64,000 nucleotides of DNA from the NCBI RefSeq assembly GCF_001625195.1, contig NC_054390.1:4302027-4366026 (forward strand), read 5' to 3'. Source of the stretch: Drechmeria coniospora. Taxonomy: Eukaryota; Ascomycota; Sordariomycetes; Hypocreales; Ophiocordycipitaceae. A program made the position numbers and the translations under genes. Positions 1 through 61,894 of the stretch are shown one piece after another (positions within the stretch are counted from its first letter, which is position 1; every line of letters begins with the position of its first letter). The notes beneath the pieces were generated by a model. That model did no database searches. It was not told where the DNA came from and worked only from the letters and a program-made list of their open reading frames with translations.

Positions 1-3000
1 GAAAACCTCACATACTAATCATATGTGTCAAAATATTATACGACGGACACTTTAGGCGCCTTGGCCTTGTCAATGGTCAATAGGAACTTACAGGCTAGAA
101 AAAATTGCTCTCAGCGTTTTACTTGAACGATTGTTTTCAGAAAGATATGAGTCAATACCTACCTTCTAGAGGCAGTCGTATTTTAGCATCTCTCTATTGA
201 ATAGACCTGAATATACGGGTATCAACTAACGGCCTATAAACTTTTCAGCAAGTAAATCATGCTAGGATTAATAGCTATGGACTTACGGCCTTGAATTATA
301 GTTGGTTTAGTATCCCGTCTATAGTTAAGTTCGTTGGTTATGGATAATGCAAACGTACACGCTGTACAGTTTAGTTGCGATCGAACATTGCCAAAGAAAT
401 ATTTGAACAGTACCGAGAATATACTTACAGTCTAGTTGCTAGCTGCGTTAGTATGCTACTTACTGCATTTAGAGTAGGCGAGAACTAATTATAGGAACTT
501 ACCCACTACGACAGCCAGCAATTAGGATATGCCACAATCAGCTCTTTAAAAATACAAAATCTTACAGACTATATAGCTGCCAATCTTATTAGCAAAACCA
601 GTATAATATACAATTGTTACTATAGAGAATACGTAACTCCCTAAGGCATGTAAGCTGTTCAAGAACATTCAGACATTAACAGTCCGAGAAAGGAAATTAC
701 ATCCTATAGTTTCGAGCGGTATAAGTATGTATAGGGTGGGTACTACAAGTAATATTGGAAAATGACTTACTTTCTAAGATTTCGAGTCATTTAACAACAT
801 AAAAATATAGTTACTAATGTTTGATGATGAACTTACATGCCGCTGTTTGCAAACCGCATTAATTCAAAACCTCCTTAACAGTGGATTTGACGACAGAAAC
901 ATACAACCTAAAACTCTTAGCAACATAATACGTTGGTGAAATTTAAGAAAGCACTAGTTCATAAATAACTAACCCACTATATAAAAGCCGCAGCATTAAA
1001 ACGATATAGTTATTACGTTTTTTACTAATGCAAGGCATGACGAACGAACTAAACATGCTCAGTGTATGAGTATTATAATAGCAACAGAGTCTATATTTAG
1101 TGTAGGCTCCAACATACATTCTAAAGATTCAGTCTTATTAGTAAATACGAGTCGTCCATAGCAAGTTTATAAACATACACCCTAGATATCAAATTATCAG
1201 CGTCCAGACAGGGAATACTTTATTGGCCATTTTACACACATGCTAGTATGGCATTATTTTAATATATACTGCTGGTAATGCAATTTATGGTGACCGATAG
1301 AAAACATACTCCCTAGTTGCAAGTCATATTAGCATGCAAACAACAATAATGCGCGTTAATTGAAAGAAAGCAACTTACAACCTAATTGAATTTAGCAAAA
1401 ATATGCGAATAAAGGTGTTTCATATATCAGTGAATGCTAACTAGCTAAAGGTACTACCTGTATTAACAACTCGCTCGCAAACGTATTCGTTCCGAGTCAG
1501 AACACACGTTCTAAAATTAATGTATCCGGTTATTACTGAAAGTACAACTCGACATTTGTTAAAAGACGTAACACACTGACTAAAGTATTGCAATTAGTAA
1601 CTGGTAATACTCTTGGTCGATATAGTGAGAAATTACATCCTAGTTGCCAGGCGCATTAGACAGCCAATACAATACAAGTCTTAGCGACTACGGGTGCAAA
1701 ACCCAATACCTCCTTATCGCAAGTCAGGTTAGCATATAGTACAGTCAGCATCGCTAAAAAGGAAAAAAAGCAAAACTTACCGACTAGGAGCCGACAGCGA
1801 TATTAGAATTATCCCGAAATTCATACAGCAGATAATATAAGCATAAACGTACTGACTAAATTGTGACGATATTAGCATCTAGTTAGCAATAGAATCATGC
1901 AGCGTATATAACGAGCGACTGACCAGCTAGGTACTGTATTGGTATGCATTTCAGTCTTTCTTTTAAACAAGCGATATCATACTCTCTAGTTGCCATCAGT
2001 ACAAGTAAAATCAAGGAAACAAATTGCCCTTTGTGTAAGTCAGAACCTACGGCCTGAGGTTGTATGCTATGTTTAATTTTTGTATTCATAGGATTACTCC
2101 TTAGTGTAGATTGGTTCGTACCCTCTAGAATTGCCGCCACTTTAGCGGTTCAGGAGTAATAGTCGGGTGGGCGGGGGAGGGGGTTGTCGCCATACTCGCT
2201 ACGTTTGTTATCAGGATCAACTCTTGCCAGTAAATATTGTATAAGTCGATCACGAGCCGGAACTCACAGACTGGAAACAGTAATCAGCAGTATAAGCAGC
2301 AATATTTATTAAAATCACGCTTCCAACATACAATGATCTAATGTTTCGCGTCATATTGTCAACGATCAGACTCCTCATATGCCATAATAGGTAAGCGTAC
2401 CACCTGGATTCATGGTTAGCATTAAAATCTCACCGGTAATCAGGCTCATTATAAGTTCGTAGGGGAGGTCATACTTCCTAGAGTTGTCTACCATATTACC
2501 AACTTGTCAATTTTCTTTGTGAACTAGGAAGATCTTACGTCCTAGAATAAAACTGTTGGGTTAGCGTACCGCGTGCAACCTATACATACCATTGGGGTAA
2601 ATTATTTACCACCTCAAGGCACCATCTAGATTAGCAAACTGCAGGAACCAAGCGTTAGGTACAACTAGCAGCTTACCACCTAAGATTTTGCATTAGTAGT
2701 GAACAGTTCTACGCTGTTTTGGGTAAGGACCTACTTGCTAGTATAGCCAAACATAATAAGTTACTGCTAATAGGTAAATGATCAGAAAATACAATATAGG
2801 GCTTACTTTCTGTAAGTAATGACCGAATTAATTCGCCGCCGCAATCTAGACTCATATAGAGACGCGAGTAGGAACTTACGGCCTAGCAGTTATATCAGCA
2901 CTCGGACAGCTACAATATTAGATTCAGAAATGAACGTACGGTCTTGAAATTCTTCCTGCATCAGCATTTCGCAACGTATGAGTTGTACTATTGCTCAATA

Positions 3001-5867
3001 GACTTACGGCCTGCAGGATTAAGTTATACGCGTGCCAAACGAGTTATTCACCTGATGGTTCGTGCTTGCAGCCAACATACAGCCTAGTAAGTCCTAATTA
3101 GTATATTAATACACCTTACAGATAAAAACCAAATGTACATACGCTCTAGGATTAGGTCTATGTCAGAATCATTCTAGATTGTCTAGATACTTTTAGAATC
3201 GTACGTGCTGGATTAGAGTTATAGTCGCATTAACGAGGTGAGTCGATAATGATATTTTAACAGTTCAAACCTACAGTCTAAATATGCAGGATACCTTAGG
3301 ATCAAATCGTGAATAAAGGGGGGTTTTTATGGAGTTCGTACATGCTACTTGCCGTATTAGCACCAGAATCTGGATACTACAAAGGAATATATACTTTCTA
3401 GTAATAGCAGCCGCGTTAGCAATAAACAGAAATAAGAAATATTGACACGACCAAAAACTCACCACCTAACCGTACAAAGCAGTATTAGTATTTTGTTACA
3501 ATGTATATTATAGGTTTGAACTTACAGGCTAGAGTTGCCAGCCATATTAGCCAGCTACTAGCAGTAGCGAGCGGTATTGTTCGTGATAATATCGACATAC
3601 AGCCTAGCGTTAGTAGCCAAATTAGTTTACCTCTCAGTTTATTACGTATTAGATACTTGAACTTACAAGCTAATATACCGGCCTAATTATTATCATGCTA
3701 TACTGAGGCTCTTAGTATTTACAAGCTCAAACATACAGCCTTAAGTTTCTGCCAGCATTAAATTGTTAGTAAATGCCTGTATAAGATATCCTGTCGAAGA
3801 GCATACGTCCTAGCATCAAATTCTATATAAGCATTCTACCAGTATTAATTAGTTTATGTTCCTACTTACGGCCTACTACGAGTTAAATTACTGTCTATAT
3901 CTTAATTATGCGGTGCAGCTTACGTTCTGGAAATGAAAATATTAGCGGTTCGTCTGGACATTTATTGTTACAAGGAGCATACGCTCTATCGTCCGCGACC
4001 GTATTAATATATTGTTAGATCAGTCCATTGTGGACACAGCGTAGGAAAATACCGACTAAAGATCACAGAAGATTTAGCATCTTGCTACATTTATTAAACA
4101 TGCATCAATTTGCTGGCTCGAACTTACGCCCTTTTGAAATGCCAGCTGCGTTAGAAAACTACCTCCGAATGCTCATATCGGATATTGTTACGCAGAACAT
4201 ACTCCTCTCTAGTATCAGCAGTCAAATAGTTAGTTTTTGCGTACAGTATTTGTTACAATTATATACTAACAACCTAGTAGTAAGACAATTTAGCATCTTA
4301 CTACCTGTAGTGAAGTCTTATTATTGAAATTTGCAAAACTACCACCTACCAACTAAAAGTAGTTGCCTGTATTAGTACATCGCTAGAATCAATATTCTAC
4401 AAATAGATGTAGCAACTTACGCCCTTTGCAGTCTTGATTTCCAAAATACATTAGACTACTACTAGCTAGTGAATGTGTGTTTGTATAAGAGAGTATACTC
4501 TCTAGCATTAGTGGCCGTATTAGTATTACAGTAAGTTCAATACTACACAAATACTAGTACCTACTCCCTTAGAGTAGCATACCGTATTGATATTACACTA
4601 AAACAAAGGCAGGACTTACTAGCTATAGATACCAGCCATATTACTATCTTAATATCCAGACTCTTCAATAATCAGTAGCTTAAACATACAGCCTTATATT
4701 GCCAGATACATTAGATTACTGCAATTGAATGACATATGGTGTATAATTGAGGTCACCTACTTTCTAGGATTGGCAGCCGTATTAGAAGACTTTAAGTAGG
4801 ATTATACGATACTAGCACTTACCCCCTAGAGTAGTCTGCCGTATAAGTATACTATAAGAATAATGTATTGCTTGTATAGTGAGGACTTACGGCCTAAAGG
4901 TAGCAGGCTAGTTACTATCTTTATATTTCAGACTTTCCATAGTCTCCAGCTCAAGCTTACAGTCTTAAGTTTCCAAAGGCATTAGATAAGCACTAAATAA
5001 TAATATCGCATATAGTTGTAAGGAGCGTACTCTCTAGTGTAGGGACCGTATTAGAACACATTTGCCACATTATGCGAGTTTAGGAAGAGCTGACCAACTA
5101 CGTTTCTTTAGATTATTATACTGCCATATAGCCAAGTCGTTCAAATCGTGTTAGAAGACACTGACAACCTAGAGTTACTGCGTATTGGTGCACTGGCCAT
5201 AAGAATTGTTCAGTACAGGGAACATACGGTCTAGTATTAGCATTGAGGTTAGTATACTGCCGAAGTAGTTTGTCCTTCAGATAAAATAAATAACTTACCC
5301 CCTAGGTTTACCAGTATTAATAACATCTATACATTCAGCAATCGAGGTAACTTACGAACTAGGATTGGTTGCATTAGCAAGAACCCGAGATCATCGTCTT
5401 TACAAATGTTTGGTATATAGATACCGGCATACCGCCTAGTGAAATACAATGTATCAGAATGCGATATACTATCAATCCATTCGATATAATAATCGAAAAC
5501 TTTACAAACTTACAGACTATAGTAGGGAGCTTTTATTAGTATTATACTAAGAGTTGAAGTCGATCAGGATAAAAAACCAACAGCCTGGATTCTTTCCATT
5601 AGCTACTACTGGTATTTGATAAAGAAAAAAATACAGACACTTACACCCTATGTTTTTAAGGCGCATTAGCAAAACAAGAGATGGTGCTAGTCACTGGCTG
5701 GATCTTACAGCCTAGAGTTGACGAATGCTTAGGAATCAAGTTGAACCCTAGCCTATTATTATTAAACTTACGCGAGGGAACAACTCCGAGATCGTAGGAG
5801 CATGTTCTATACTGAATGCGATTCCTTGACCAGCAAGGAGCCCTACAAATAAGGGGAAGGGCTTCAT
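1..5867 (-). CDS. Gene 1: micro-exon gene for a putative secreted protein, 3' part beyond window edge
   Basis: Starts with ATG at 5867 and runs leftwards out of the window. After a 96-nt first exon the minus strand shows about 83 repeats of acceptor (TAG/CAG/AAG), exon and 5' splice site (GTAAGT, GTATGT, GTACGT and variants); nearly all exons are 3 nt. Examples: GCT (Ala) at 5709-5711 and GGT (Gly) at 5645-5647, with introns of 60, 61 and 60 nt measured between the first exons. Read in phase 0, the early part gives TVLRTAGKALGRG and the end nearest the window edge gives WTRAAKPY, matching the paralogues. Compared with genes 2 and 3 it lacks about seven consecutive single-codon exons between 831 and 965. 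A few exons are 6 nt (near 836, 2338 and 4206). The family is not recognised; a secreted protein is inferred from the N-terminus only. The model has no RNA support, but conserved order and phase across four copies make chance unlikely. Confidence 0.8.
5772..5867 (-). CDS. Gene 1 first exon: signal-peptide exon, 32 codons
   Basis: The 96-nt exon runs from ATG (5867-5865) to CGC just before GTAAGT (5771-5766), so the first intron is in phase 0. It begins MKPFPLFVGLLAGQGIAF, a short basic start followed by a hydrophobic core as in a secretion signal, and ends SELFPR. The same length, start and end are found in the other three copies, which fixes the start codon and the first splice site. Cleavage probably follows the small residues after the hydrophobic core; the closing Pro-Arg could be a processing site, which is speculative. 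Confidence 0.85.
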
Positions 5868-7070
5868 TATGGTAACGAGAATAAACGAGAAATGAATGCG
5901 ATACAAATATCAAAGGGGAAAATGAGGGCAAAACAAAAAAAACTAACGCGAGAGGCAGGAAGTGTGAGAATGCGGTAAGGAACCGGTGTTTTATATGCTC
6001 TTAGAGCTAAGCTCGGTGTTCTCTGGGAAAGCGTATATGTGCGAAGGTGCTCCGTAGTGCCTTGCTGTAAGGTATTGTTAGCGTATCCTTATGCCGAGCT
6101 AATTTTTGTACTAGTATGTAAGTGGCGATAGGCCAGCCGAATTCCACTTAGTACAAACTTTATTATGCGCTCCCTAGTTTATAGTTCAGACACTTGTGCA
6201 CTGTAGTAGTCTTGTGAGTATCATCATGAACTCTGTGTATTGTGATGGGCGAAGTACTTGGATAAAAAAACAGATACCACAACTACAGGCACTTGTTACA
6301 GAAGTTGAACCAGTTCCCAATATTAAAGCACATGGTGCGGCTGCTATCTAACTATATGTCCGTTTATGTCCATACTTTGCTGAAGTTGTATAGTAAAATA
6401 TTGAATAATAAATTTCAAGAAAGCAAATTAAACTCCGACTACGATTGTTCGACATTATACCAAACCACAGCCTACAAATTTCACATAGTAGTACCCGCAT
6501 AGTGCACACATATATATAGGAAGCTATAATCGAACTTCAATAGAGAAGATAAGGGCTTCATCTATATTTTGTTGTTGTTGTCTCCAAGTATTTAACATCA
6601 ATACAACATTATACGGGTTCAAACGATACAAAAGAATGCAAAGTCCTCACTACGAATGTAAGTACCTAGGTACCTAGGGCGTGGCGCTACACTCCGATAA
6701 AGTGGGTACGCACAGTAACGATAACAGCGTTAAGAGGTTGAATATGGTTACGGAACAGGTATAGCGTCAGTGCTGATGAAACAGTCCGTACTATGCTCCG
6801 TACTGTTCTCCTTCTTCCTAGGTCCAAAATAAGGTTTTCCCTACGGAGTACGGAGTACTTGTGTTCGTATCCGCAATTGATGTCCCCTCCCCACCAACTT
6901 GGGATCTCAAGGTAGGGAGGGACTCATGCGAGCAAGCACGCCGTCGCAAAGAGCTGTAACCTTGCAGATGCGAGTACAGTAGTCGAGAACTTGTACTCAT
7001 TTTAATTACGAGCATTTCCCCAATCCATTAGTGGCAGTTGTTTACTAATGACGGAGATTATTATTTGTTT
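5868..7070 (-). promoter_or_regulatory. Conserved upstream block of gene 1
   Basis: No gene is visible here. The block is recognisably shared with 26382-27430, 43482-44240 and 61895-63010: landmarks are GTGGCGCTA near 6684, the phrase GGTCCAAAATAAGG near 6821, and a stretch around 7030-7060 also found near 62960. It holds the 5' untranslated region, the TATA-like box and probably regulatory sites. Short ORFs in it are not conserved in frame. Confidence 0.6.
5989..5995 (-). promoter_or_regulatory. TATA-like box of gene 1
   Basis: TATAAAA on the minus strand, about 122 nt upstream of the gene 1 ATG. TATAAGG, TATAAGA and TATAAGA stand at the matching place in genes 2, 3 and 4, each followed by a conserved CACC/TACC-type context. 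The shared position and distance suggest the core promoter. Confidence 0.6.
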
Positions 7071-7494: not shown

Positions 7495-7559
7495 TTCTCA
7501 GTAGACCAAGCACCCTAAAAGAAGAGATACGGTTCGGCGTACCTACGATATTCGTATAT

Positions 7560-8190: not shown

Positions 8191-8249
8191 GCTGTTAAAA
8201 TTACCGGTATTTATACTAGTAAGACTACCCAAATAGGATACTATCCTAT

Positions 8250-11780: not shown

Positions 11781-12061
11781 TAAAGTCGTGTGAATAGAGA
11801 AAACGGTTCGTATAATTAGGAAGACTTATTGAATATCTTGCCTTTCCGTGAGCTGGCTTACATGTTTGGCACTGGAAGGGGACTTGCGTTCATTTACTTC
11901 TCAAGAATAACTAAAACCTGAGACCTTGGATGTTTTAGCCTGTACTCAAGTCATGCCCACCTGGCTTATGAAACCCTTGGGATTATTAGCAATGCCTCCG
12001 ACGTATGATACCTACAAGCCATTTCGCAGCACCAGCACATCCCGAAGCAAGGGTAGTACTA

Positions 12062-12151
12062 ACCGTGCCACACCCCACTTATTAGCGACTCGGATCCCTC
12101 GCACCAAGTTGGTGCTCACCACCACAACGCATACATCAGCACAACGCACAC
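12062..12151. repeat. Left terminal inverted repeat of the pogo-like element
   Basis: About 90 bases including ACCAAGTTGGTGCTCACCA, matched in inverted orientation by 14335-14429 with scattered differences. TA dinucleotides flank the pair. Confidence 0.75.
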
Positions 12152-12199
12152 ATGTTAATTCAAATACCTTCAATTGCGAATATCTTTACAACTATAATA

Positions 12200-14859: not shown

Positions 14860-17800
14860 CTAGCCGGGATTATTCAAAAAGAGGAGTAGTTCACTAATTC
14901 GGATGCGTAAGCTTATATCCTAAATTCGACTAGAAAAGAACATACTTTCTAAATCAGGCATATTAGCTTACTAGAACGAAACGTAGTCGTTCAAGAAAAA
15001 TAATATGCCGCCTGAAATTTCCAAACATATTAATACAATACTAGAATTGTGCGTACTATTTTGATTATGGGTAACACGCACTGCCTAAATATTCCTCTTG
15101 CATTGGTATTCAAACAGTAAATAAATATACGGTCAAAACGTACTAGATATTTCTTCTATTATTTCAAACCTTTGTTAGTGTATTGTTTTAAATTTTCAAG
15201 TAAAAGCAGTCGAACCTACTCTCTATAACAGTAGGTCGTACTGTTAGCATCAAAATAGTTCACGAACTAACTATAATACTAACAAGAGCTTACCTCCATC
15301 TCCTGTAATTGTATTAATAAAGTCCCAAGATCATAGTAAGTAGTATGTCTTACCGTTTAATTCAGTAAGCTGTATTGGCATGTTCATCGCTAGATTAATT
15401 TCGGTCATGAATCGGAAGCAGCTTACGAGTCTTCTCGGGGGAGGTTTGAGTGAAAGTTCCTCGACCATAGCCCTTGGTGTATATAGTATTTTTCGTATAT
15501 ATTATCATCCTTCGTACGCTCATCTGGAAGGCCATTCTCTTGAGCCGCAGGTTGAGCAGCCTATAGTAGCCCGTCATTTCAACATCCAAGTAAAAATAAA
15601 CAGACTGCTTGTAAATAGTAGGTAGTTCTTACCTTCTCCTAAAGCAGGGATATATACATTAGCATCACGTTAAAGACTCTCTCTCTATTAATGTAATAAT
15701 ACGTACTGACTCCTAAAAAGCAAGTCGAAGTAGGTCGTCAATTACAGTAAAATTCCATGTATATGTCGCAACTTACTTCAACTTTAACCAAGTCCTCCTC
15801 AGAATGCTAACACTCAGTTAGACAATAGCTCACACTACAGTAATACTCGTAGGAAGATGTAATTTGGCTTTTTTCAACGAGCATGTTGAAATGTCACCCG
15901 GTTAACCAAGGAAGTAACCCACCTCGATGCTTTGCGTTGTCTAAGAAAGCGCAATTATATTATTTAGGAACTAGAGCTGAAGAGCCAAGGTCTGTATGAA
16001 CTATAGTACTTACTGGATCTATTTCCTGACATTGCGATAAAAGTAAGCCAGAGAACATTAATGTTATATGAAATATCACAATATGAAATCGAAATAGACT
16101 TACGTTCTGAAATAGCCATATATCTTAGCATTCATCCAGTAGCAATGTATACTACCTTTTATCTGCAGTAACGTACTAGCTAAGCCCAGAAATACATTAG
16201 CATAATATGAATAATGTTATTATGCTTTATATTAATGATACGCACCTCGGGCTGCTTTTCCCAATACAAATGCTAATGTTAATGCCACGTCAATACTTGG
16301 ACCTCACCAATATTCGTGGCAGAGATTTTGGGTCGGGACTCACCTCGTGCTGTTGTTGCTATTACAATTGCCCATATTAATACTCTGCAAATAATCTGAC
16401 TCGTGAAATATTGGTAGCAGGGACATGAAACGTACATTCTAAGCCAACCATCGCATTAGTGTAACATAATATAATGCTGCAAAGTTCATGGTTATGACTC
16501 ACATCCTCCTCCAGTTGTAGCTATTATTGTTGACAATGTAAATGCTATGCTGATAATCGCACTCCACAAAAATCGCCAGTAGCGGCTTACTTTCTAAATC
16601 CGTTATGTATATTAATTAGTGAATCCACTCTATTTCATGCATGGTTAAAAATAGACTTACACGAAGCAACTAATTATTAGTTTGGCAGAATGAGCCTCAA
16701 TTACAACAAAATTCATTCCTATCAATGAAATGGACGCACCATTTCCCGCAAATCATCCAACGGAATAATTTCGGTTGTCTATAACGGCCAGTAGGATTAT
16801 AAACAGACAGAATTCAAATTCCGAGTACATGGAAATAGCCACTTACGTCCTATAGTCCCAATCATATTAGCGATTGAATAGCTCTGGTTTACAAGAAACA
16901 CTGCTGCAAATTCCTAGTGAAAGGGAATAGCCACTCACGTCCTATAGTTCAAACCGTATTAGCAAAATAATAAGTCTCGTTCACAAAAAACACATCTGCA
17001 TAAGTAGGAACCTACTTTCTACAGCGAAGTAAACCAGCACGTTAATTTAATAATTATTTTTGAGCTATGGGCGGAAACCGTACATACTAGTACAAGTCAA
17101 TATATCAACACTCACTAGCATTCTAATTGCAACTCACTCCCTAGTATTAACTATCGTATCAGAATGCTGACCAAAACCTATTTCGGAATTAAAAAATAGC
17201 TTAAACTTACTGGCTAGTATAGTTATGCAAGTTAGTATGTAGCGAAGACTTTAGATAGGAATAAAGTAAGAACTTGAAACTTACAAAGGTCTAGCATAGT
17301 ACAATATATTGAATTAGCATGTTCCTAGTATTCAACTAATCAGCCAAATGGCCTCTTAACTTACCAACTAGATAACCAGAAAATTAGCTCAGCGAGTTCA
17401 ATCCCCATATAGAATTGATCACAAATTACCTCCTATTGTACCCCTGTCTATTAGTACACCTCGACTATAACGATTACTTTGCTCTATTTCCTAGCTAGGC
17501 AAAGACTTACAGGCTGTTGTTATTAGTCAAATTAGCGTACTATTGGGTACAGCCAATACGGGTAGGGTAGACTAGGATCGTAGAATATATTAGTAGCAAA
17601 GATGACCTTACCGTCTAATATGCATTTTAGCATGCATTATCACTCTACTTCTTTATCTATTGCTAGTAGTCACTGACAACCTAGAGATTACAACAGTATT
17701 AATAGAATACTAGCAGTTGTATCTCAACAGTACACAGAAGGCTTACTTTCTATATTTTGCATGTACATTAGTATCTCCTCAAGGTTCTCTCGTTCTGTAT

Positions 17801-20800
17801 GCACATTGAATAAACGTACGACCTAATACCACATTAGTATCTCATCTGCTACCGAGACTGATCGACAAAAACTTACACACTTGTTTTCCGAAGTATAAGC
17901 CAATCTGGATATGTAAGTTAATGACAGTTAGATGTTACTTACTTGCTAGAGTAAACCGGCGTTAATCATCCCAAAACCTGACAGCTCTTTACGACTGGGA
18001 AAATTCTACATTCTTGAGAATCTATACGTATTAGATTACTCATAATAATCGGATCAGCCCGGATTTTTCGAAATAGCCTACGTTCTAGGGTGGCCAGGCG
18101 TATTAGAATCAAACTAGAGATCTCCAAAATCTCGGTAATATCTTACTTCCTTTAAAAGTGCGCGTGCATTAGCAATCAACAATGGGCACCAGCTGTAAAT
18201 AACAATCGTACATGCTACAGTTGTAAACCATATTAGTGTACTTGTAAAACAGTTATGGGTAAGGTAGAAACTTGCGTGCTGAATGATAAATGTCAATGTC
18301 TACTGGCAGCTTATCATCCTTTTTACGAAGCTGGAGCTTACGTACTAGAGTTATTATATCAGCATATAGATACTGGTACTAGCTTTTATATAGGGCAAAT
18401 GTAGTGAGCAACTTACGTTCTACCGTTTCCCTATCGTGTAAGATAATTGCAAACAAAAAAGTAAGGTACATGCACTTTCGTGTATGAACATACCCACTAG
18501 GGTTACCGATTAAGTTAGCACACTACAAGAAACTTGCTGCTCCCGATATGTGTGCTTACGCCCTAAAGATTCGGCTTATCAATACATTACTAGCGATCGG
18601 CGCCGTAAAATAACTTCAAGACCGGTAGGAACATACAAGCTAGAAGTTTGTGATCATATTAGCATTTACTCATTATATAGAAGGCAAAACCATTAAGGAA
18701 CTTACCGCCTAGTTTCCCAGCTTTAGCCCAAATCCACGAATTCAACTTTTTTGACAGCAATCAAAAACTTACTTCCTATATATATAGGTATAATATATAT
18801 ATATATTAGAAAATAGCCTATAGCTTAAAATTATTTCTTTAGTCAATACTTACGCACTAGAAACCATATTCGTGTCAGTAGCTTTTGAATACAATATTAT
18901 TTGAGATACAGGCAAGACTTTACCCGCTAGAAATTCCAGAGGATTCAGCAAGATTCACCTCCATACAGTCAGTCATAGATAATACTTACCAACTGGTTGA
19001 AGAGAATATTAACGTCTATGCAGAAACTTCGCTACTTAGTCCTCTTAGGCAAGAACCTACGCACTGTATTTTACAACTACTTTAGTATAATGCAGCGATA
19101 AGAGTAAAAGTAAGACTCACAGCCTATAATTATCAGCATATAAAATAACATTGATTATAATGAGATATTTTTATACTTACAACCTAGAGCAATCACTGAA
19201 TTAGTCTTCTTACATTTATACCAGAGGGTCGCAACCCTAAAGCTTACATACTTTTGTTGTATTAGTCACCTTCTTACACATACTTGACCCAGGACTGGGG
19301 GGTTGACTTACGAACTACGATTTAAATCCTCCTTAGTATCACGCAAGTAGTCCACTAATAGTTAATATTATGAACTAAGAAACATACATATTCCGACTAA
19401 AGAGTTACATTATTAAAAACCTACAAAGTCAATAAAAATACATCTATGGGCGGGAACTTACCGGCTAAATTTATCCGCTACTTTAGCATAAAATATTCCG
19501 CAAATTGGAATGTATCGTACATAATGCTTACGTTCTAATGTTTTATATAATTCAAAAATAATTCCAATATTCCTGCACATTTCGTAACAATATTACTTAC
19601 GTTCTACCGATATTGGATATATCAGTACTTAGAAGCCAGCTTCCCCTTCTTTTATAGGCCTTAACATACACGCTGTCGATCCCTGCCATATTAACACTCT
19701 ATAGGTTGACTTAACTTTCTCCCAACAACCAGACGAAACCTACACACTATTAATATTAAAGTATTAGCATCACCAAGAGTAATAAGATATGATTTCGGAA
19801 CATACTTCCTAGAAACAATAATCGAGTTACAATTGGAGAAGGTTTGATAATAATAATCAGAACTTACCCACTAACAAATGTTAACCACTCATAGTATGTC
19901 CGATCGTACGTGGCAGAGACATACTAGCTATAGTTGCTAGAATTAGTATCCTAATTTCTGATTCATAATTTTTCGTAGCAGATAGGATCTCACAAACTAT
20001 ATTGCATTGCTAATTAGTATCTTGCTAAAAGGATAGCTAATCGTCATTTTTGAAAAAACTCACATACTAAACTAATATATCAACATATCATACGATAGAC
20101 AATTTCGACGCATTATCAAAGGCGAATAGGAACTTACAGGCTAAAAATAATATCTGTCAGTGATTTACTCGAACGATTACAGTCAAAAGGATGTGAGTCA
20201 ACTCCTACCTTCTAGAGGCGCTCCTATTTAGCATCCCTCTAGTAAATGGACCTCGATATCCGGGTATGAACTAACGCCCTATAAATTGTTCCGCAAGTAA
20301 TTCATGCTAGGGTTAATAGCTACGGACTTACGATCTTAAATTATAGTCAATATAGTGTCCTAGATATAGTTACGTTTGTTCGCTATGAAAAATCAAAACG
20401 TACAAGCTATACAATTTAGTTACGATCTAACTATGCGAAATCAGATATTTAAATAGTAATAAGAATATACTTACGATCTAGTTACTAGCTGCATTAATAT
20501 ATGACTATACTTAGGGCATACAAGAACTACTTATATGAACTTACCCACTAGGACAGTCAGCAATTAGGATAAGCCACAATCAGCTCTAGCAACACAAAAA
20601 CGTACAGACTATTCTGCCAACCTTATTAGCAAACCCAGTAAATTATCTAGCTGTTACTATAGCAAATACGTAACTTCCTGGGGCCTGTAAGCTTTACAAG
20701 AATATTCAGACATAAAAAAGTCTGATAAATGGAATTACATTCTATCATTCCAGCCGTACTAAGTATTCAAAAGGGCACTATAATTGGTATTGGGAAATAG

Positions 20801-50554: not shown

Positions 50555-53500
50555 CTAGCCGGGAATATTTAAGAGTAGGAGCAGCTCACTACTATATTCG
50601 TAAGTCGGATATATACGCCTGTAGCATAAATTCGAGTGGATACGAAGCATACACGCTATAGTAGAGGGCCAAATAATGATCTGTTAGCAAAGTAATATGT
50701 TATGACCAGTTGAAACGCACCGTTAATACGGCTATTAGAAGCATTTTCATCAGCAAAACCAAAGGGAATAATATGAAAGCACGATTGTTCGACGTACGGG
50801 CTACAGTAACACCAAACTGTCTTAGCATTTCAATCGCCACCAGACTATCTGATACGTTGTGGCTAGGAATAGCTTACTTCCTAAAGTATGGGTTATACGG
50901 ATTAGTTTGTTGGAACACAGCCTATATATTTGACAGAAATTTCATACCACCTGTAATTTGCTAATATATTAACATAATGACAGAATTACGGATGCCACTA
51001 TCCTGATGGGTTAAAACGCACCACCTAGATATTCCAGATGCATTAGTGTTCCAATAGCAAACAAACTTCCTTAAGAACATACCCGATGTTTCGTCTATTA
51101 TTTCAATCCTTACTTAAGCATATCGTTGTAAGTTCTTATTGGGCAAGAATATTCGAGCTTACTCTCTGTGACTGTAGATTATGCTATTAGTATCGTTATA
51201 GTACACGAGTTAACCATACTACTAGCAACAATTACCTCCTGGCTCTGTAGTTCGTTACATAATGTCAATTTCCAAGATCTATAGTAGCCAATATGTCTTA
51301 CCAGCTATTACGGTAAGCTGCATTAGCATGCCGCAGTAGTGATTTCTATCTTTCATTGGAAGCAGCCAGAATCTTAACCATTGCAAGTCAACCTACCTTC
51401 TAAACAACGTGAATATATTAGTACATTAAAAGTAGCATTAGGCCAGGTCTTGAACGCATAGCTACTTACTACAGTATTGTTATCGGCAGGCTGGGATCAA
51501 CTTAAGCATGCTGCTCCTCATTTTATACTTTTGAATAGCAGGAATGGACAAACATTCTTCTCAGGCCAGTCCTCTTCGCCCTATAGTCCCAAACTTATTA
51601 ATACCACATCGAAGACTTTACGTTATTGCGAGAATACGTACTTCAGACGTTTCCAACTAAGCAGCAAATCATATTAGCTTGTCTATTAAGGTGTAATCCT
51701 AAGTTGATATTCCAACTTACTTCAACTTCATAAGGTCCATCGTGGCCCTAAGACTAAATTAGACAATAGCTTACACCGCAACAACACTCACAGGGGGTTA
51801 TAGTTCGGGCTTCGTCCAAAAATCCTCCAGCAATATATTGCAACACCACTCCACTGATCAAGGGGAGTTAATATACCTCAATCGTGTAAATCTAAAGAAG
51901 GGTTGTAGTAATAATTAGTAGCCAGGCTTGTTGAGATCCAAAAATGCATACCTTTGTCTTTTTGGGTTTGGGGGGCTGAGTCTTCTTATGCTAACAACAA
52001 CGCAAGCAGTATTAGCAAGCCTCATATTACAGTTCTAATAGGTTTAAATCGTAGCAACTTACGGCAGAATTATTACCCCGATAATAATCAGACTTCTCGT
52101 AAATAACAGGCGAAGACTTACTTTCTACAACAGCCACATATATAAGCATATCCTTTTACAACATAAAATACTCTATACAACTTATAGCAACTTACCTTCT
52201 TCTCCTCTGCCTTAACTTGCTGATATTTCAATAAGGTAAGACAGTGAGTTAACGCTAGTTTCGATATGACACATAACAACGTACTTGAGCCTTAGCATGG
52301 ACGAGTTTAATAGTTAGAAGATACAGTATATCAATAATCGGACTCAACAGTTGCGGGTAAAGACCTACCTTAAAAAATATACACCTTAGCATTTCGCTAG
52401 CCCAACACATGCCACCTACTATCGACAGAAACGTACCAGCTAAACCCAGTACCATATTAACATACCGTGGATTACTATGCTGTTATATTTCACGTTATAA
52501 TAACATACCTCGAGCTTTCTTTGCTATCGCAGTTGCCCATATTAATACCATGCTGATAATGAGACTCCAACAATATCGCTAGCCGGGACTTAGAACTTAC
52601 TTTCTAAACCGACTACTGTATTAGTACAACAAATAGCAGAGCTATTCCATTCCATAAGTAGGACCAACCGCAGTGTGCTCTGCTTGCTATTAAAGTAGAG
52701 CCTTTAAATACCATTCCGATAATCGGGCGGTACTACCGTTGCTAGTTGGGACTTACTTTCTAAAATCATCCGTTATGTTAACGAATCGAATCAATTTCAT
52801 GCGTAGTGGAAGGCGGGTTGTCCGCATACACGAAGCAACTAATCGTAAGTTTAGCAAGGGGTGCCTCAGCATAAAGTATTCATATTCATGTGATTTAACG
52901 CACCATTCCCCGCAGTTCAGTCAACGGAATAACTTTGGTCTTCTATGATCCAGGGCAACTACAATTAGACAAAGATCAAACTCCTAGTGGATGGAAATGG
53001 GCACATACCGTCTATAGTTCCCAGTCTCAATAACGGAATAGATATGATTTACAAAAGACACAAAAAGGAACCTACCCCCTATAGTGTGGTGTATCAGAAT
53101 GCTGATTCAGCAATTCTATATGTACTATCAGCAGAAAATCTTACGGTCTAGCACAAGTCAATATATCATTTCATCAATTCCTTTAGAACTAAAGCAGTGA
53201 CTCACTCCCTAGTATTGCCTAACGTATCAGAATACTGAAACATATCTAATTCGTTGCTAAAACATAGTTGAAACTTACTGCCTAGTATGGAAAAACAAGT
53301 CAGTACATACTTCAGACTTTAACTTCTTAATAGCTACAAGACAGTTGAACCTACCATCGACTGGCGATATTCAATTATTTGATTAGTATATTGCTACTAT
53401 TCAATATATCCACCAAATAGATTCCAGCTTACAACCTAGATAGCATGAATTAGCTCAGCGAGCTCAATGCCCATAGAGAGGCTGTCAGAAGTTACACGCT

Positions 53501-56500
53501 ATTGTGCCCCTTTCCATTAGTATATCCCGACTCCAAGCATCATATTATTCACTGAATAACTCACAAGCTATTGTTATTAGTAAAATTAGCATACTGCCAT
53601 CCACTCACAAAGTCCGATATACTAAGAACATAAGATATTGGGGATAAATAGGACCTTACCTTCTATTATGCATTTAATTATTCTTGCCCTGCTTGCTTAA
53701 CTACTGCCAGAAGGTACTAACATGCTAATCTATCGTTTAATAGAGTACTAGCAGTTACACAAAGTCCATCTAGTATGCAGAAGGCTTACCCACTAAAGTT
53801 TGCATGTATATTAGCATCTCCAAAAGCATCTTTCGTAACGCCAACATCTCGACTAAACGTACTAACTAATACTCCGTTAGAATTCGGAATACTTCCAAGA
53901 CTAATCAAGCAAGAAAACTTTACACACTAGTATTTCACAAGTATAAGCAAATGCAGCGATTTTAGTCAGTAGCGGGCGGATAGGCTTGGCTTGGTACTCA
54001 CTTGCTAGAGTAAACTGGCTTAGAATATTCCTAGAAATACAGCTTCTTCCATACTAGGAAATGCGTACTTTCTTGAATATCCATCGTATTAGATTACAGC
54101 TAGTAACCAGATTGATCCAGAGCTTTCGAAATAATCTACCGTCTAGAGTAGCCAGGCGTATTAGACTCCTGCCGGGATTATGGCAAATCTTGGCAATGAT
54201 CTTACATCCTTAAATTGTGCTTTAGGAAACGTCAATAACACAAGATAATCGCAGAATAACAAACACACATGCTATAGTTTTAAGCAATATCAGTATGCAT
54301 TCACAACATTTATAGGCAAAGAGGAAGCTTGCGTTCTAAGTTTTATAATTTAATATAGGCTTTCAGCTTTTATTACAAAGGGATAGCTTACGAACTATGG
54401 TTATAAGTCCGATTAGTATATATGTATAACCGTTCATCAATAATATATATACAGCGAATGACTTACCGTCTATAGATTTTGCAACGTATAAGAATTTTGC
54501 TACCAAATGCCTGCCGATTTACATTTCAATGTACAAACGTACAAACTAGAGTTCCCGGTTGAATTAGCTAGTACACAAAAAGGAATATGACTGCTCCCGA
54601 TGTATATGAAAACTTACGTTCTAAAGGTCCAGCATATCAATACTTATATTATAAGTGCCGGTAGTTTTACTTCGTAATAACATACAAGCTAGAAGTTCGC
54701 AACTAACTTAGCGTCTACGTATTACACTTATGACAGAATAATAAGGGTAACTTGCCGTCTAGTTTGCCAGCTTTAGCCTGGAGCTACCATACACTTTTTG
54801 AACTATAGCAAAAGGCTTACCTCCTACATATACCTATTAGCAAATGGCTGATAGCTGAAAATTATTTCCGCAATACTTACGCACTACGGAATCATATTAG
54901 CAGCTTTCAAATACCCGATTTTTTAAAGAATAGTCGAGACTCTACCCGCTAGAGTTACCAGAGACTTTAGCAAGAATTACCCTGATACAGTTTTGGACAA
55001 TAATTACCAACTAGTCGAAGACTATATTAACTTCCTAGCAACAAATTTGATACTGAATCTTGCTAGGGAAGCACCTACGCACTATATTTCCAAACAATCT
55101 TAGCAAAATACAGCAGTAAGTATCAGTATGACCAACAGACTTAAATTACTAGTTAGCAAAATAATATGGATTAAAGCAGAAGGTGTGCTTTATCAAACTT
55201 ACAATCTAGAATAATCGCCGAATTAGGTTTATATTATATATCCAAGCTATTGCAGGTTCGTATTGTTGATGCTCACATACTTTTGTTGTATTAGTTCTCG
55301 TGTTGCATGTACTCGACGATTACATAGTGTTTACTTACGTGCTATGTTTAAAATCTTAGTATCAGGCTAGTAATCAACTGGTTATTCAAAATATGGAGCG
55401 TACAAATGACTCCTAAATTATTGGTCATATTAGGGTACCAGAATGTTCATAAAATTACAGCAGCAGGCTGGAACTTACCAACTATATATACCGGCTATAT
55501 TAGCATGAATAATTCTACTTATTTAAATGTTTAATATGGAAAGCTTACGCCCTAGATATTGGAGAGATTTAATACCATACTACTGATAGTCCTGCATTTC
55601 AATTTAAATTACTTACGATCTATCAATGAGATATATTAGTACCTAAAATCCGACATCACTTCTCTCGTAGGGTTGAACATACATTCTATCAATCCCTGCC
55701 AGATTAGCACCATAAACGTTTACTTTGAACTTTCTGCTAGCTGCTAGATGATACCTACGCACTATTGACCCTTGAATATTAGCATCAATAGTAGTGGTGA
55801 AACATATGTCCTATTCATACTTTCTAGAAAATAAAACTGAGTTAAAATCAGACAATAATGAATAATTCTAGTTAGAACTTGCATGCTAAAAGCTGTTAGC
55901 TGTTTATATTACTTCGATCGTACATCGAGAATCGGGACATACGAGCTAAAGTCAATGGAAATTAGTACTCTGCGGTCTGTTTAATTCTTGATTGAAACAA
56001 AGTAGGTCTTACCGGCTATGTTTAGATATGAATGAGTATCTTCCTTCATAAAGTATCGCTTGTGATTGTTATAAAACGAAACGTACAATCTGGACAAAGC
56101 TCAAAATTTATACAATACATATTATGGACCTCATCGAATTTGAATGGGAACTTACAACCTAGAATCATATACATTAGCATAGTAGTAAATCAAAACTTTT
56201 CAAATGGTAATGGTCAAAACTTGCCCTCTGGAGATACTCCCTGCTTTAGTATCTTTCTTGGAAATAGATTGGCTTGAGATGTAAGTATGAACTAACGCCC
56301 TAAAAGGATTTAGCAAATTTATTTTGGTATTAACAGGTACGGACTTACGATCTTAAATTATAGTTGTGTTAGTGTCTTGTCCATAATCGAGTTCCTTGCT
56401 TATGGATGATGAAGACGTACAAACTGTATGATTTAGTTACGATCGGACTTGCTAAAACGATCTATTTTAATAGGGAGAAACCACATACGATCTGGTTGCT

Positions 56501-59500
56501 AGCTGCATTGGTATGCTACTATGTTTCGATTACCCAAGAACTACCTGTGCAAACCTACCCACTAGAAAAGCAAGCAATTAGGGGATATTACAATCACCAC
56601 TTTTATAATATAGGAACTTACAGGCTATAGTTGCAATCCTCATTAGCTACATAAGCAAATATATGGTTTCGACAATAGGAAATTACGTAACAAACTAAGG
56701 CATGTAAGCTGTGCAAGAACATTTAGACTTCAACAGTCCAATAGCGGAAATTACTATCTACAGTTTTCAGTCGTATAAATATTCATGGCCTAACTTGAAT
56801 AGTCCGACGAAGGAAATTACAGTCTATAGGTTCCAGCTGCATAAGTATTTACAGGGTACTGTTAATTGCTTATGTATCAGAACTTACAGTCTATAAATTT
56901 GAGCATTTTTAGCACTTTGCGAAGTATACCAATTACTGCTTGGTTTACGAGCTTACTTCCTGCAGTTATAATTTACATTAATATACTGATATATAAATAC
57001 ATTGATGATGCATATTGTTAACGTACATTCTGAATTTAATATCGCATTAGTCCAGAAACAGCAAATTGTTGGCAAGACATGTACTTGCGCTCTAGAGCCA
57101 TTTCAGTGTTTCAGTACGATGCTAGTATTATCTTTCCTCCCAATGCTGGCTAATAGAAACGCACCAGCTAAAGAAATGGAATATTAGTAAAACTTGATTA
57201 AATATTTTCGATCCCTATTGGAACTCACCAACTATTGATAGCAACTTCATTAGCATATATGAAATATAATGCATAATTTCCAAGAGATAGTGATTGGTGT
57301 ACATCCTAGTTTTCATGTATATATTAATACTCACGCTAGAAATACTCATATTCTGAGTTTTGATTGCGAAAGAATCAACGTACGAACTATAATTCATATC
57401 GCTTTAGTATCACGCCTCAACAAAGCTGGTAAACCTGCATAAACGTACTGACTAGAATATTTAGACGTATTAACACCTCAATAAAATGGTTTCGACGGGA
57501 AGAATATACTGCCTAGACCTCTTCGTTATCAAAAACGTCGCTAAAATTTTGGGTAGCACTCATTCGTTAATAACTAACAAACTAGGAACAAGCAGCACTA
57601 TTAGTTAAAAAGGATTTGTTATCGTTAGAAAGTACGACTCACGACCTAAAAATGCTGGCGCATCAGTATTATACTAGCACTGGAGTTGAATTGCAACGTG
57701 CTTTCTAGTGTTCAATCCCATTAATAATTAAGTTACCCTTAGTAGGGAAAATAAACGTACGCCCTAGATATCAGATTGTCAGCATCTCGAAAGTAATTAC
57801 ATTATCTGTCACACGTTATTGAATACATTCTAGTATTGCATTATTTTAGTATATCCCCATTTGTAATACAACTCATCGAGTTAGATAGAAAACATACTCC
57901 CTAGTTGCCAATCTTAGTAGCATATAAACAATAATAAAGTACGTTCAGAAGAAGTACATAGGAGCAACTTACAATCTGGATACCAGTTATCCGTTTAGAA
58001 ATGATCAATCATAGTTCTTGCTTGTACATGAAAATACTAACAAGCTACAGGTATTACCTGTATCAGCAGCTCGCCAGCAATACGAACGTAGTTAGCTGCG
58101 AGTTACAACATACATCCTACAATGAATATACGAGGTTATTACTAGACATACGACTCGATATTATCTATTAGCAGTAACTCACTTTCTAAATTGTTATATT
58201 TTAGTAATTGGTAACATTCTTGGTGGACATGGTGAGAAGATACGTCCTAGTTGCCAAGCGTTTTAAAATTTCAATACAATACGAATCATTACCATCACGG
58301 GGAAAGCCTATACCTCCTAATTTATTTAAAGTTAGTTTAGCACAGCTATGCAATTTGTATCGCTGAAAACAAATAGAAATATGCATACTGACTGGGAGCC
58401 ATATTAGCATCATCGCTCATTTAGAATAATAGCAATACAACCATAAACTTACGGGCTAAATTTACAAGCCTTATTAGCATCTGGGAGGCAATATTGTAAT
58501 GATCAAACTGACTATCTAAAGTACTGTGTAAGTATGCATTTCAAATATTTTTTATAACAAGTAACACCTTACTCTCTAGTTGCAACATGAGCATAACATA
58601 GCAACGAAGTAATACTTTTTGTAAGGTACGAAAGAACATACGGTCTTAGGCTGCACGCTATGTTAAAAGTTTGTAATTATAGCATTACACTTTTGAAATG
58701 AATATCTCTTACCGTCTAGAATTGTCAGCCATATTAGTATTTCTGGGATGATTGCAAAGGGGTGGGGAGAGGGGGCGCCCTACTTCCTAGAGTTGCTATC
58801 AGGATAGTCTCTTGCCCTTAACTGTCGTGCTAATCGAGCATAAGTAGTGAACTTACGGCCTAGACAACATTCATTAGCAGCATGGCATCAAAAGGTATCA
58901 GAATCACTGTTCTCAACTTACATTCTGATATTTCGGGTGACACTATTAGCAATCAGGTTTTTAGTACAGCTAGTAGTAAACGTACAAACTTGAGTATCAT
59001 TAGCATTACAATCGTACCGGTCGTAAAACACATTATGAGGTATCATGCAGGGCATACTTTCTACAGTTGCCAAGCATGTTTTTTAAGCTGAGTCAAAGTT
59101 CTTTTATCAACTTGGAGGAACGTACGTCCTACAATTGACTGGTAGGTTAGCGTACCAGTCAATTCCGATACATTAAATATCAGGCCATATGACTTACCCA
59201 CTAAAATTACCAACCGGATTAGCAGCCCGCTATGCATAAGAACCATATGCATTTGCCGCTAGCATGAAGAGTCTAATAGGGATAGGAGCAGGAACTTACG
59301 ACCTAGGTAGTCAGTGGTATCAGCATTCGGACGGCCATAACATTTAGTGCTAGATTTAGAAAGGAACTAACCTCCTAGTAAGTTTTCCAGTATTACCATT
59401 TCGTCGCTTTTAAGAGTCGCCAATACTGAATAGACTTACGACCTGCGATTGTCAGCTAGATGCGCCCTTACAGTTCATTCGCCTTAATGTTAATAGTTGT

Positions 59501-61894
59501 AGCCAACTTACACCCTAGAGAGCCCTAATTAATATCTGAATGGACGTGACAAGTGAAAATCGAACAAACATACTTTCTAGCGTTCCATCTATATCAGAAT
59601 GTCACCAAATTTACAATGTACCTATTGGATCTTACTTCCTAGATTTGGAGTTACAATCGCATTAGGAGTAACAAGGTAGCTTCAATGAGCTAGTGTCGCT
59701 TGTGCAAACTTACGGCCTAAATGTACAGGATTACTTAGGGTCTTGTTGTCAATCAAAGTCAAAATTTACAGAGCTCGTACCGCCTAATAGCCATATTAGC
59801 ACTTGACACCAAGAGGGCTCATTCAAAGGAAAACATACTTCCTAGATATGGCAGTGTTAGGAACAATAACTCCAAACAGGAAATCTCTATGATGAGCAAA
59901 AACCTACGATCTAATTGTTAGGAGTATTGTTAGCATCTTGTTACAACGTAATTATACGTTTGAACTTACAATCTAATGTTGCCAACTGTATTAGACTGCT
60001 ACGAGCAACACCAATTTATTGACATACTTTCTAGCGTTCGCAACAGTGTTAGTACATCGTCAGAGTAAACGTATTATGTATCAGATGCAGAAACTGACTT
60101 CCTAAAAATACCAGAATGATGAATATCGCGTTGTACTAGGGCGTACTAGCGTTTGCCGGCGCGAACGTACACCCTTGAGATGCCAACCGCATTAGAATAG
60201 TGTTATTATATACTCGTATTAGATACTCTCGCAGGGGACATACATCCTAGCATAGGACTCCATATTAGCATGCTACTAGCTCTCCAGGATTGTGTTGCTA
60301 CCTACGACCTAGAGCAGGTTCTAGTACTGTTTCATACGTCAATATTTAGTTACAGCTTACTTTCTTTGCATAGAAATGGTTATGTCAGCCGCGTAGCTGA
60401 ATGATACGTTATTGCGAGGATCATACTTTCTATGGTTGATAGCCACGTTAGTATACCGCTAGGAACTTGTTATCGACGTTGTGCGATACTATTACTTACT
60501 CCCTAAAGTAATATGCCGTATTAGTATCTCACTGTCAAAAAAGGGTACGACTTGCGGGGGTGGGGCGTACAACCTGTAGTCACAAGTCGAATTAGTATCT
60601 CGACATTCACACTCTTCTCTAGCAACCAATCCAAACTTACAAACTTGAATATCCGAGCGCATTAGATTACTGCTCGAGAATGCTCACTAGTGTACTATGT
60701 AAAGAGCATACTTTCTAGGGTTAATAGCCATATTAGCAGTTTGTTAGCGGCATTCTACGATATTAGCACCTACCAACTAGAGTGATTTATCGTATTAGGA
60801 TATAATTTAAAATAAACTTGCTGCTTGAATGCATACGGCCTAAAATACCCAGTCAAGTCACCAACCGGATCAGCAAACAGCGAGGAACTCAAAGGCAAAT
60901 ACTTTCTAGAGTTAGTCGCCGTATTAGTATCGTACTGAGTTCTATACTGAATGATAATACCACTTACTCCCTAAAGTGGAATGCCGTGTTAGTATCTAAT
61001 TGTCAATAATCGGTGGTACTTGTGGCGGTAGGATTTACGGCCTATAATTACCAGCCGTGTTAAAATCTCGATATTTCAGACTTGTCTATAGTCAACAGCT
61101 CAAACTGACAGTCTTACGTTGCTAGAGGCATTAGAATACTGCTAGCGAATGATCATTTCATGCATTACAAGGAGCGTACTTTCTAGTATTAGGAACCGTA
61201 TTAGAATAAGCCTACGGTTTTACACACTATGCAAGTTGGGAAGCGCTAACCACCTAGATGTGGCCCAGATTATTATGCTATAGTAGGGTCAAGTCATAAG
61301 AAGGGCGATATTATGAACTGACCAACTAGAGTTTCTGCGTATTAGGACCGCGGCTATAGTTTAATTTTCGTTACAAGGGACGTACAGTCTATAGTATTAG
61401 CAGTCAGGTCAGCATACTGCCTGACTAATTTGTCCTGGAGAAGAGTTCAAGAACTTACCGACTGGGTTTACAACTATTGTTAACGCCGTCTATCCAATAT
61501 TAGAGGCAACTAACGAGCTAGTGTGGGTTGTATTAGGAAGACCCCAAGGCCAATTGTTTTAGGAATGTATTGAATATAGACAATAGCATACGAACTAGTC
61601 CAACACAATATATCAGAATTCCTCATATTACGAACTCATTCGATACGATAATCGAAAGCTGTACGAACTTACAGGCTACGTTTCGAGCTGTATCAGCAAA
61701 ATACAATATGGTACCAGTTACTGGATATATCTTACAGCCTAGAGTTTTCAATTATATAAGCATTTAGTTATATCTTATCCTGTCGTTATCGAACTTACGC
61801 GAGGCAACAACTCCGAGACCTTGTTGTCATCTCCTTTTCCGAATGCGATCCCTTGACCAGCAAGGAATCCCACTGACAGTACTGAGAGCTTCAT
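50478..61894 (-). CDS. Gene 4: complete micro-exon gene
   Basis: ATG at 61894; proposed stop TAA at 50480-50478. Same plan: 96-nt first exon, a long series of 3-nt exons, a 39-nt exon (52904-52942), longer exons, terminal exon. Recognisable stretches: LVKTAGKA early, WIFIGRVIPLHKC, HYI then CLRCETLNFTFNHDTKQC. It is the most diverged of the copies but keeps the cysteines. One exon near 55140 appears to have lost its 5' splice site, one place (52368/52369) has acceptor and donor directly joined, and the two longer exons seen at 15.5 kb in gene 2 are missing. Local duplications have added exons near 60.5-61.1 kb and 56.7-56.9 kb. The family is unknown. Confidence 0.78.
52363..52371 (-). other. 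Gene 4 zero-length exon
   Basis: AAG acceptor (52371-52369) is followed at once by GTAGGT (52368-52363). Genes 2 and 3 have a 3-nt exon here (near 16105 and 33467). The site looks like a recursive splice site: the residue would be lost without disturbing the frame. Confidence 0.5.
52904..52942 (-). other. Gene 4 39-nt exon
   Basis: KTKVIPLTELRGM between a TAG acceptor (52945-52943) and GTGCGT (52903-52898). Matches genes 2 and 3 in length, frame and the IP-x3-LR core. Confidence 0.8.
56720..56862 (-). repeat. Tandem duplication of one exon unit in gene 4
   Basis: Two units about 65-75 bases apart share AGTCCRA, GGAAATTACWRTCTA (R and W mark differences) and ATAARTATT. Each carries one 3-nt exon. 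Confidence 0.6.
60480..61140 (-). repeat. Internal duplication of several exon units in gene 4
   Basis: Around 60497 and 60965 the same order recurs: ACTTACTCCCTAAAGT, TATGCCGTATTAGTATCT or a close variant, then a G/T-rich stretch and the next unit. The offset is about 465 bases, six or seven exons. Genes 1 to 3 lack it, so gene 4 should carry several extra residues here. Confidence 0.55.
61799..61894 (-). CDS. Gene 4 first exon: signal-peptide exon
   Basis: 96 nt ending CGC before GTAAGT (61798-61793). Begins MKLSVLSVGFLAGQGIAF and ends SELLPR. Confidence 0.85.

Follow-up and report, generated by a model that had tools for sequence, protein, structure and literature searches.

The 64 000-nucleotide (nt) window analyzed here (C2:4302027-4366026, C2 being contig NC_054390.1 in the 32.8-Mb assembly of Drechmeria coniospora, a fungus that lives as an endoparasite of nematodes) holds on its minus strand four genes, A to D, in which most predicted exons consist of a single codon. 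The family has at least six genes: A to D in the window, E upstream (start at C2:4379394) and F, 1.3 Mb away (start at C2:2964420). They share one layout: a signal-peptide exon (30-32 codons; called by eye from MKP..GFLAGQGIAF and not by a predictor), 118-131 single-codon exons, a conserved 39-nt exon and then longer exons. The signal-peptide exons of A to D start at 5867, 26381, 43481 and 61894 on the minus strand, each ending in phase 0. A first-pass annotation had described four arrays leading off from such exons; all four starts were found, but gene A is cut by the window edge and the genome holds six genes. The parts of A to D are (window coordinates):

5772..5867, minus strand: gene A signal-peptide exon (32 codons, MKPF...ELFPR, phase-0 end)
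1..5771, minus strand: gene A array of 3-nt exons, running past the left window edge to about C2:4297176 (window coordinate -4850)
-2734..-2772, minus strand: gene A 39-nt exon, outside the left edge
26286..26381, minus strand: gene B signal-peptide exon (32 codons)
16779..26285, minus strand: gene B array (3 nt in 129 of 138 exons)
16740..16778, minus strand: gene B conserved 39-nt exon (TTEIIPLDDLREM)
14891..16739, minus strand: gene B 3′ part, longer exons, decoded end K-TGA
43386..43481, minus strand: gene C signal-peptide exon (32 codons)
34046..43385, minus strand: gene C array (3 nt in 131 of 136 exons)
34007..34045, minus strand: gene C conserved 39-nt exon (ITEVVPFERLRQL)
29786..34006, minus strand: gene C 3′ part, longer exons, including a tandem block of 33-, 57- and 3-nt exons
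29794-29786, minus strand: gene C stop, CCG TTT TAG, placed by homology (the program took an acceptor 9 nt further)
61799..61894, minus strand: gene D signal-peptide exon (32 codons)
52943..61798, minus strand: gene D array (3 nt in 125 of 127 exons, longest run 92; about 57335-56690 uncertain)
52904..52942, minus strand: gene D conserved 39-nt exon (KTKVIPLTELRGM)
50723..52903, minus strand: gene D 3′ part, longer exons, ending CCG TAT TAA (50731-50723)

The repeated unit, an acceptor, exactly 3 nt and a donor, was searched as [TCA]AG-NNN-GTA[ACT]GT; within the window it has 237 matches on the minus strand and 3 on the plus strand, versus 1 and 6 in two first-order Markov simulations. Other acceptor-donor spacings (0-15 nt) gave 0-22 minus-strand matches each, the commonest being 12 nt (22), 15 nt (17) and 6 nt (14). 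These strand, spacing and simulation controls rule out chance or composition as the source of the 3-nt units. Neighbouring units (<100 nt apart) are spaced 52-81 nt, and a branch-like site ahead of the acceptor scores above zero in 236 of the 237; the hundreds of minus-strand units with preceding branch sites and a spacing of about 60-75 nt, noticed at first pass, were thus recovered. Acceptors are TAG in 78% of units and CAG in 12%. One of the 237 triplets is a stop codon, and the exon bases next to the donor have no bias towards AG, so that the codon is free to vary.

Genome-wide, a pattern of two consecutive units gave 36 matches (reversed pattern, 0). Of these, 29 fall on the minus strand within the cluster C2:4299419-4377968 and 3 on the plus strand at an isolated locus, C2:2966521-2971514; simple repeats account for the other 4. 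With a second pattern there were 13 matches, 9 of them in the cluster or at the isolated locus (reversed, 1). A signal-peptide query of the genome (E up to 10) pointed to six places, and six candidates were scored.

GC content is 38% in the window versus 53-59% in four other samples of the genome; the genome publication gives three finished chromosomes (12.5, 10.2 and 9.8 Mb) with 55% GC (PMC4792172). The cluster as a whole (C2:4297176-4379394) and locus F form an AT-rich island with dinucleotide indices like those left by repeat-induced point mutation (RIP).

Exon length, reading frame and splice signals

In an unconstrained decoder introns were picked by donor, branch, acceptor and length, with no rule on exon length or frame. 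On the minus strand it gave 555 introns and 448 exons of at most 60 nt; 360 of these short exons measured exactly 3 nt and 415 were a multiple of 3. The plus strand yielded 34 short exons (2 of 3 nt, 13 multiples of 3), and simulated sequence 32 (2 and 15, respectively). The original signal models had been trained on 3-nt units, with a risk of circularity. Circular training as the cause of the 3-nt peak is countered by two controls: with models trained only on the distant gene F, 396 of 528 exons were 3 nt (plus strand, 2 of 90), and with a hand-written generic consensus, 382 of 632 (plus strand, 5 of 243). Stop codons numbered 0 among the 396 and 0 among the 382.

A strict, frame-aware decode is strongly weighted by its prior towards 3 nt and multiples of 3; the unconstrained decode serves as independent evidence. 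With this prior, 822 of 946 internal exons are 3 nt and 945 are multiples of 3; the single exception, an exon of 55 nt, lies close to the 3′ end of F, and the frame is shifted after it. Of the 946 intron positions, 937 are in phase 0 and 9 in phase 1. Genes A to D have 150, 161, 184 and 154 exons in this decode, and across the family 3-nt exons make up 118-131 of the 124-138 exons upstream of the 39-nt exon. The longest unbroken runs in A to F are 30, 25, 52, 92, 56 and 90; the earlier figure of about 140 consecutive 3-nt exons was too strong. Gene spans are 10.6-13.6 kb, coding lengths 831-1389 nt and decoded proteins 277-463 residues, in place of the roughly 165 exons (150-184 in A to D), 11-14 kb and 300 residues first estimated.

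The same decode gives 149, 160, 183, 153, 157 and 150 introns in A to F, with a median length of 65-66 nt; their lengths fall across all three remainders modulo 3, whereas the exons are multiples of 3. U2-type signals are present (GT donor in 927 of 952 introns; 868 YAG and 81 AAG acceptors), though the decoder itself looks for GT, branch and AG signals; the core of the branch model has T at 0.98 and A at 0.96. At 100 codon boundaries common to all six genes there is an intron in all at 82, in none at 13 and a varying state at 5. Retention of 940 of the 952 introns would lead to a frameshift or a stop, while skipping of any 3-nt exon keeps the frame.

No stop codon occurs among the 360 unconstrained 3-nt exons, where 11.2 are expected by positional composition (P = 1e-5) and 17.0 by overall composition (P = 3e-8). 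Re-ordering the letters of these exons gave 3, 3, 12 and 12 stops, plus a trivial 0 on swapping codon positions 2 and 3, as this swap maps the stop set onto itself.

The decoded proteins show 54, 50, 34, 32 and 47% identity to B. In each, a signal peptide ending LFPR, LLPR or VLPR leads into a basic segment of variable sequence, followed by a cysteine domain and a charged tail. An alignment of all six (from which a short piece and two long exons of doubtful status were omitted; the raw decode aligns too) has 27 invariant columns including C145, C157, C160 and C173, the four invariant cysteines of the conserved domain (C, then YxxCxxC, then H and C). As a protein alignment favours the true reading, 12 codon readings were compared on whole-gene DNA alignments of the pairs AB, DE, BC, BF and CF, in which 111-127 single-codon exons stand in register with single-codon exons. 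The true reading had the best mean BLOSUM62 score over changed codons in 5/5 pairs; by plain amino-acid identity it was best in BC and CF and tied in BF (53). The ratio of non-synonymous to synonymous substitution rates (dN/dS) was <1 in 15/15 protein-aligned pairs (0.28-0.94).

By eye, a homologous stop can be read in five of the six genes: TAG in C, TAA in D, E and F, and TGA in A (the ends of A and C were read by homology, the program having chosen another acceptor). Directly after this stop, A, C, D and E have CG and then a new donor, and F has AAG and then a new donor. These donor-like sites right after the stop, again seen by eye, suggest at least one intron in the 3′ untranslated region (3′-UTR). 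A 3′-UTR intron normally marks a transcript for decay; such introns are therefore unusual.

Two further features of single members were observed. The 3′ part of C has, at about 31200-32600 (minus strand), a tandem block with a period of 357 nt in the strict decode (the 57-nt exon four times, the 33-nt exon three times, with 3-nt exons between), which lengthens its tail. By eye, the 5′ leaders of A (5868-6000) and C (43482-43600) share the stretch CCCTCATTTTCCCC, with a looser version at E (C2:4379395 upward) and a TATAAAA upstream of A; a shared promoter is possible.

The 3-nt peak, the absence of stops, the homology of paralogs, the best replacement similarity, the shared intron map and the stop of three types together support the reading of the arrays as genes decoded codon by codon; the view taken at first pass, that these genes consist mostly of single-codon exons, is supported in silico.

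Several observations weigh against this reading. Donors start with GTAHGT in only 429 of the 952 introns, a strict CTAAY lies within the searched stretch in 423, and a GC donor was decoded in 25; some of these weak-signal and GC-donor introns are probably decoding errors. In the 237 units GTAHGT is imposed by the search pattern, and the branch signal there is strong. Paralog identity, at 84-91% in donor and 91-97% in acceptor positions versus 60-75% in intron interiors, counts in favour of the codon-by-codon reading, but the difference is partly built in, as the decoder picks consensus-like sites in each gene. When the frame prior is weakened, 17 of 952 internal exons cease to be multiples of 3, and gene D acquires an in-frame stop downstream of exons of 1 and 8 nt (about 57335-56690), a stretch that the strict decode spans by a doubtful 130-nt intron. 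The strict decode also includes doubtful long exons of 63 nt in A, 45 and 96 nt in E and 54 nt in F. The exon of proline, an aromatic residue and the stop seen in other members was not found in B, whose odd end is the least certain. Exon codons diverge as fast as introns (identity 59-73% versus 60-75%); by plain identity the true reading is not the best in AB (61, best 65) or DE (61, best 65); and among the five DNA-aligned pairs the 95% interval of dN/dS is clear of 1 only in CF (0.15-0.53), reaching 1.05-1.52 in the other four. Thus, dN/dS is too weak to decide whether the arrays are coding; codon divergence and dN/dS fit fast evolution under weak or mixed constraint. Finally, 5.8 billion database proteins included none matching B at E≤0.1 and none matching the family alignment at E≤1.

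A positive control for this search, a HOS4-like open reading frame (ORF) of the same genome, retrieved relatives from Tolypocladium, Purpureocillium and Hirsutella at 61-65% identity over most of the query and one further Tolypocladium match at 82% over 10% of it; no D. coniospora entry was among the best 120 of 605 matches. By this control the collection covers relatives, apparently not D. coniospora itself. The three genera belong to the same family as Drechmeria; an ordinary-gene homolog in relatives was looked for in these searches with B and with the family alignment, and none was found. Searches of Pfam gave no family for B and C and, for the six members, a single match in one (DUF3615, E 0.043); NCBIfam gave 0 matches, the best E among PDB sequences was 1.2, and no RNA family reached the gathering threshold in the window.

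Growth of the arrays and comparison with known systems

Paralogs have related introns at matching positions (36-92% of such pairs exceed the 99th percentile of mismatched pairs), which indicates that the arrays pre-date the six genes. The arrays have also kept growing by tandem duplication of intron-plus-codon units, with 1, 4 or 7 units at a time. Introns 6-8 of E are nearly identical 58-nt copies with one codon after each, units 37-40 of E are repeated as 41-44, and intron 12 of A resembles intron 16. Similar intron pairs number 9/784 at offset 1, 6/766 at offset 4 and 6/748 at offset 7 (several of them stemming from the same duplications in E), compared with 41/44135 at offsets >10. Nearly all introns are in phase 0, which agrees with arrays lengthened by whole intron-plus-codon units; insertion at random would give a mixture of phases.

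On average the introns of a gene are only a little more alike than shuffled ones: the mean within-gene pair score is 6.4-6.6 versus 6.0-6.3 with shuffled interiors, and 34-73 pairs per gene, mostly close neighbours, exceed the shuffled 99.9th percentile versus 10-15 expected. The small excess may be due in part to the branch motif, which the shuffle breaks. Introner-type elements are introns nearly identical across a gene or genome; an introner-like origin is not supported here, strong pairs being mostly local.

A DDE_1 transposase fragment (PF03184, E 1.7e-16) lies between A and B (window 13309-13701, plus strand). By eye, the ORFs at 11403-14241 and 44490-44789 (both plus strand) resemble pieces of similar elements; Pfam gave no transposase for those neighbouring ORFs that were tested.

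Searches of the literature for genes of this type found none with consecutive 3-nt exons, with most subscription papers outside reach, and the accessible portions of the D. coniospora genome literature do not mention them. The comparisons that follow likewise draw on the accessible parts of the papers cited. Micro-exon genes (MEGs) of schistosomes are a secreted, variable family with the coding region in many short exons, of 6-81 bp and mostly 15 bp (3-81 bp in the abstract), and introns of 0.1-5 kb (PMC10526429). As in MEGs, the predicted coding region of the array genes lies mainly in very short symmetric exons behind a signal peptide; unlike MEGs, 822 of 946 internal exons are 3 nt, the median intron is 65-66 nt and A to D have 150-184 exons. 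No Pfam family common to the two was seen, and no direct sequence comparison was made. The bicycle genes of aphids evolve fast and encode putative effectors, in many cases with a signal sequence at the N terminus; their internal exons are small, numerous and of the same phase, and their gene structure is slow to change. They average about 17 exons, nearly all internal exons being in phase 2 (PMC9168663). The array genes are similar in their many small same-phase internal exons, fast divergence, slowly changing gene structure and signal sequence, but differ in phase (0) and in the exon number already given; as regards the CYC motifs of bicycle genes, what was observed in the array family is an invariant YxxCxxC.

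Tiny exons occur singly elsewhere: a 1-nt exon in Arabidopsis APC11, for which its authors regard stepwise, recursive intron removal under intron definition as plausible (PMC4674806), a 3-bp exon in Drosophila homothorax (PMC7392893), two 3-nt exons in lipS of Dactylellina haptotyla (PMC5639578) and a 20-nt microexon in Trichoderma xlr2 (PMC11121469). These genes have one or two tiny exons each, whereas unbroken runs in the array genes reach 25-92. A stwintron is an intron one of whose splice signals is interrupted by a second, internal intron (PMC5639578). As in stwintrons and at recursive splice sites, two splicing events abut within a few nucleotides in the array genes. Recursive splice sites leave a 0-nt exon; unlike them and stwintrons, the array genes keep a full codon between complete introns. 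The array genes are classed here as an extreme form of micro-exon gene, one for which no sequence kinship was found.

Interpretation of the arrays

We consider it very probable that the array genes are a working protein-coding family of six, spliced codon by codon through intron definition by the ordinary spliceosome. The median length of 65-66 nt suits intron definition, by which the short introns would be recognized and then excised in succession. As two splicing complexes cannot fit onto the 3-nt exon of AG-NNN-GT, removal would have to be sequential, each step fusing one codon onto the upstream exon. From the signal-peptide exon to the 39-nt exon, most codons would be exons of their own, and the coding part of the mRNA (0.8-1.4 kb) would encode a secreted protein of 277-463 residues. 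Transcription with complete splicing, as well as secretion of the products, is predicted on the strength of the gene models; a role at the nematode interface may be inferred.

On top of this explanation stand two readings of what the structure is for, of which the second is not exclusive with the others. The first, to which we give a little less than an even chance, is a neutral ratchet: in an AT-rich island with weak selection against introns, units were duplicated and hardly ever lost, and the structure has no function. The unit duplications are visible and frame-neutral, and the low GC content of the window relative to the rest of the genome and the DDE transposase fragment between A and B would suit such an island. 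Against it, the better conservation of splice sites than of intron interiors (with the decoder caveat above) speaks for a lasting cost of upkeep, and the boundaries that differ among the six genes are few (5/100).

The second reading, possible although we doubt it, sees the arrays as a generator of splicing variation: in-frame skips would yield a whole range of secreted isoforms, and the architecture would persist because diversity is an advantage at the host interface. For schistosome micro-exon genes, isoform variation by exon skipping has been proposed. As skips of 3-nt exons keep the frame, transcripts with such errors would pass quality control and persist, unlike those that retain one of the 940 introns (of 952) whose retention breaks the frame or brings in a stop. 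By simple arithmetic, a fidelity of 99% per intron leaves only 22% of 150-intron transcripts at full length. Codons also diverge fast between paralogs; however, the invariant cysteines and the near-fixed intron map (82/100) look like selection for the full product. Tentatively, and as an unlikely proposition, one could join these elements and equate codon with exon: a secreted family, including its cysteine domain, built and still lengthened residue by residue through unit duplication, with a cloud of in-frame-skip variants at the nematode interface.

A shelter from RIP, in which few coding bases are spread among many introns so that most C-to-T damage falls in introns, is improbable. RIP indices in all six genes (TpA/ApT 1.20-1.27; (CpA+TpG)/(ApC+GpT) 0.87-0.95) and the GC content of 3-nt exons, 0.43-0.51 versus 0.33-0.36 in introns, would agree with it, and so would the preponderance of TAG over CAG acceptors (78% versus 12%), a change that RIP would make harmlessly, CAG lying in its sequence context. 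But four intergenic stretches of the window lean alike (1.07-1.24 and 0.92-1.06), so that the RIP-like signal is partly regional, and the exact one-codon exon length is left unexplained.

Non-coding arrays, be it a satellite of splice motifs or a single huge intron full of decoys, with the signal-peptide exon joined to the 39-nt or later exons, are very improbable: codon divergence equal to that of introns and a dN/dS not clearly <1 in 4/5 DNA-aligned pairs speak for them, but 0/360 stops, exon lengths in multiples of 3, homologous proteins with invariant cysteines, the best replacement similarity of the true reading in 5/5 pairs and a homologous stop of three types speak against, and a satellite origin would give high identity between units, which mainly the local duplications show.

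If the codon-by-codon genes are expressed as decoded, a fungal spliceosome joins >100 single-codon exons per transcript. Exon-based models of splicing would be strained, current notions of the minimum size of an exon would be challenged, and intron definition with sequential removal would become directly testable; with about 150 events per mRNA, the family would be a natural system for the study of splicing fidelity. It would also be a visible case of proteins that grow as intron-plus-codon units are duplicated. Gene finders would be blind to such a structure, so that relatives may hide in other fungal genomes. The codon as a unit of gene growth and variation, if true, would be a new category.

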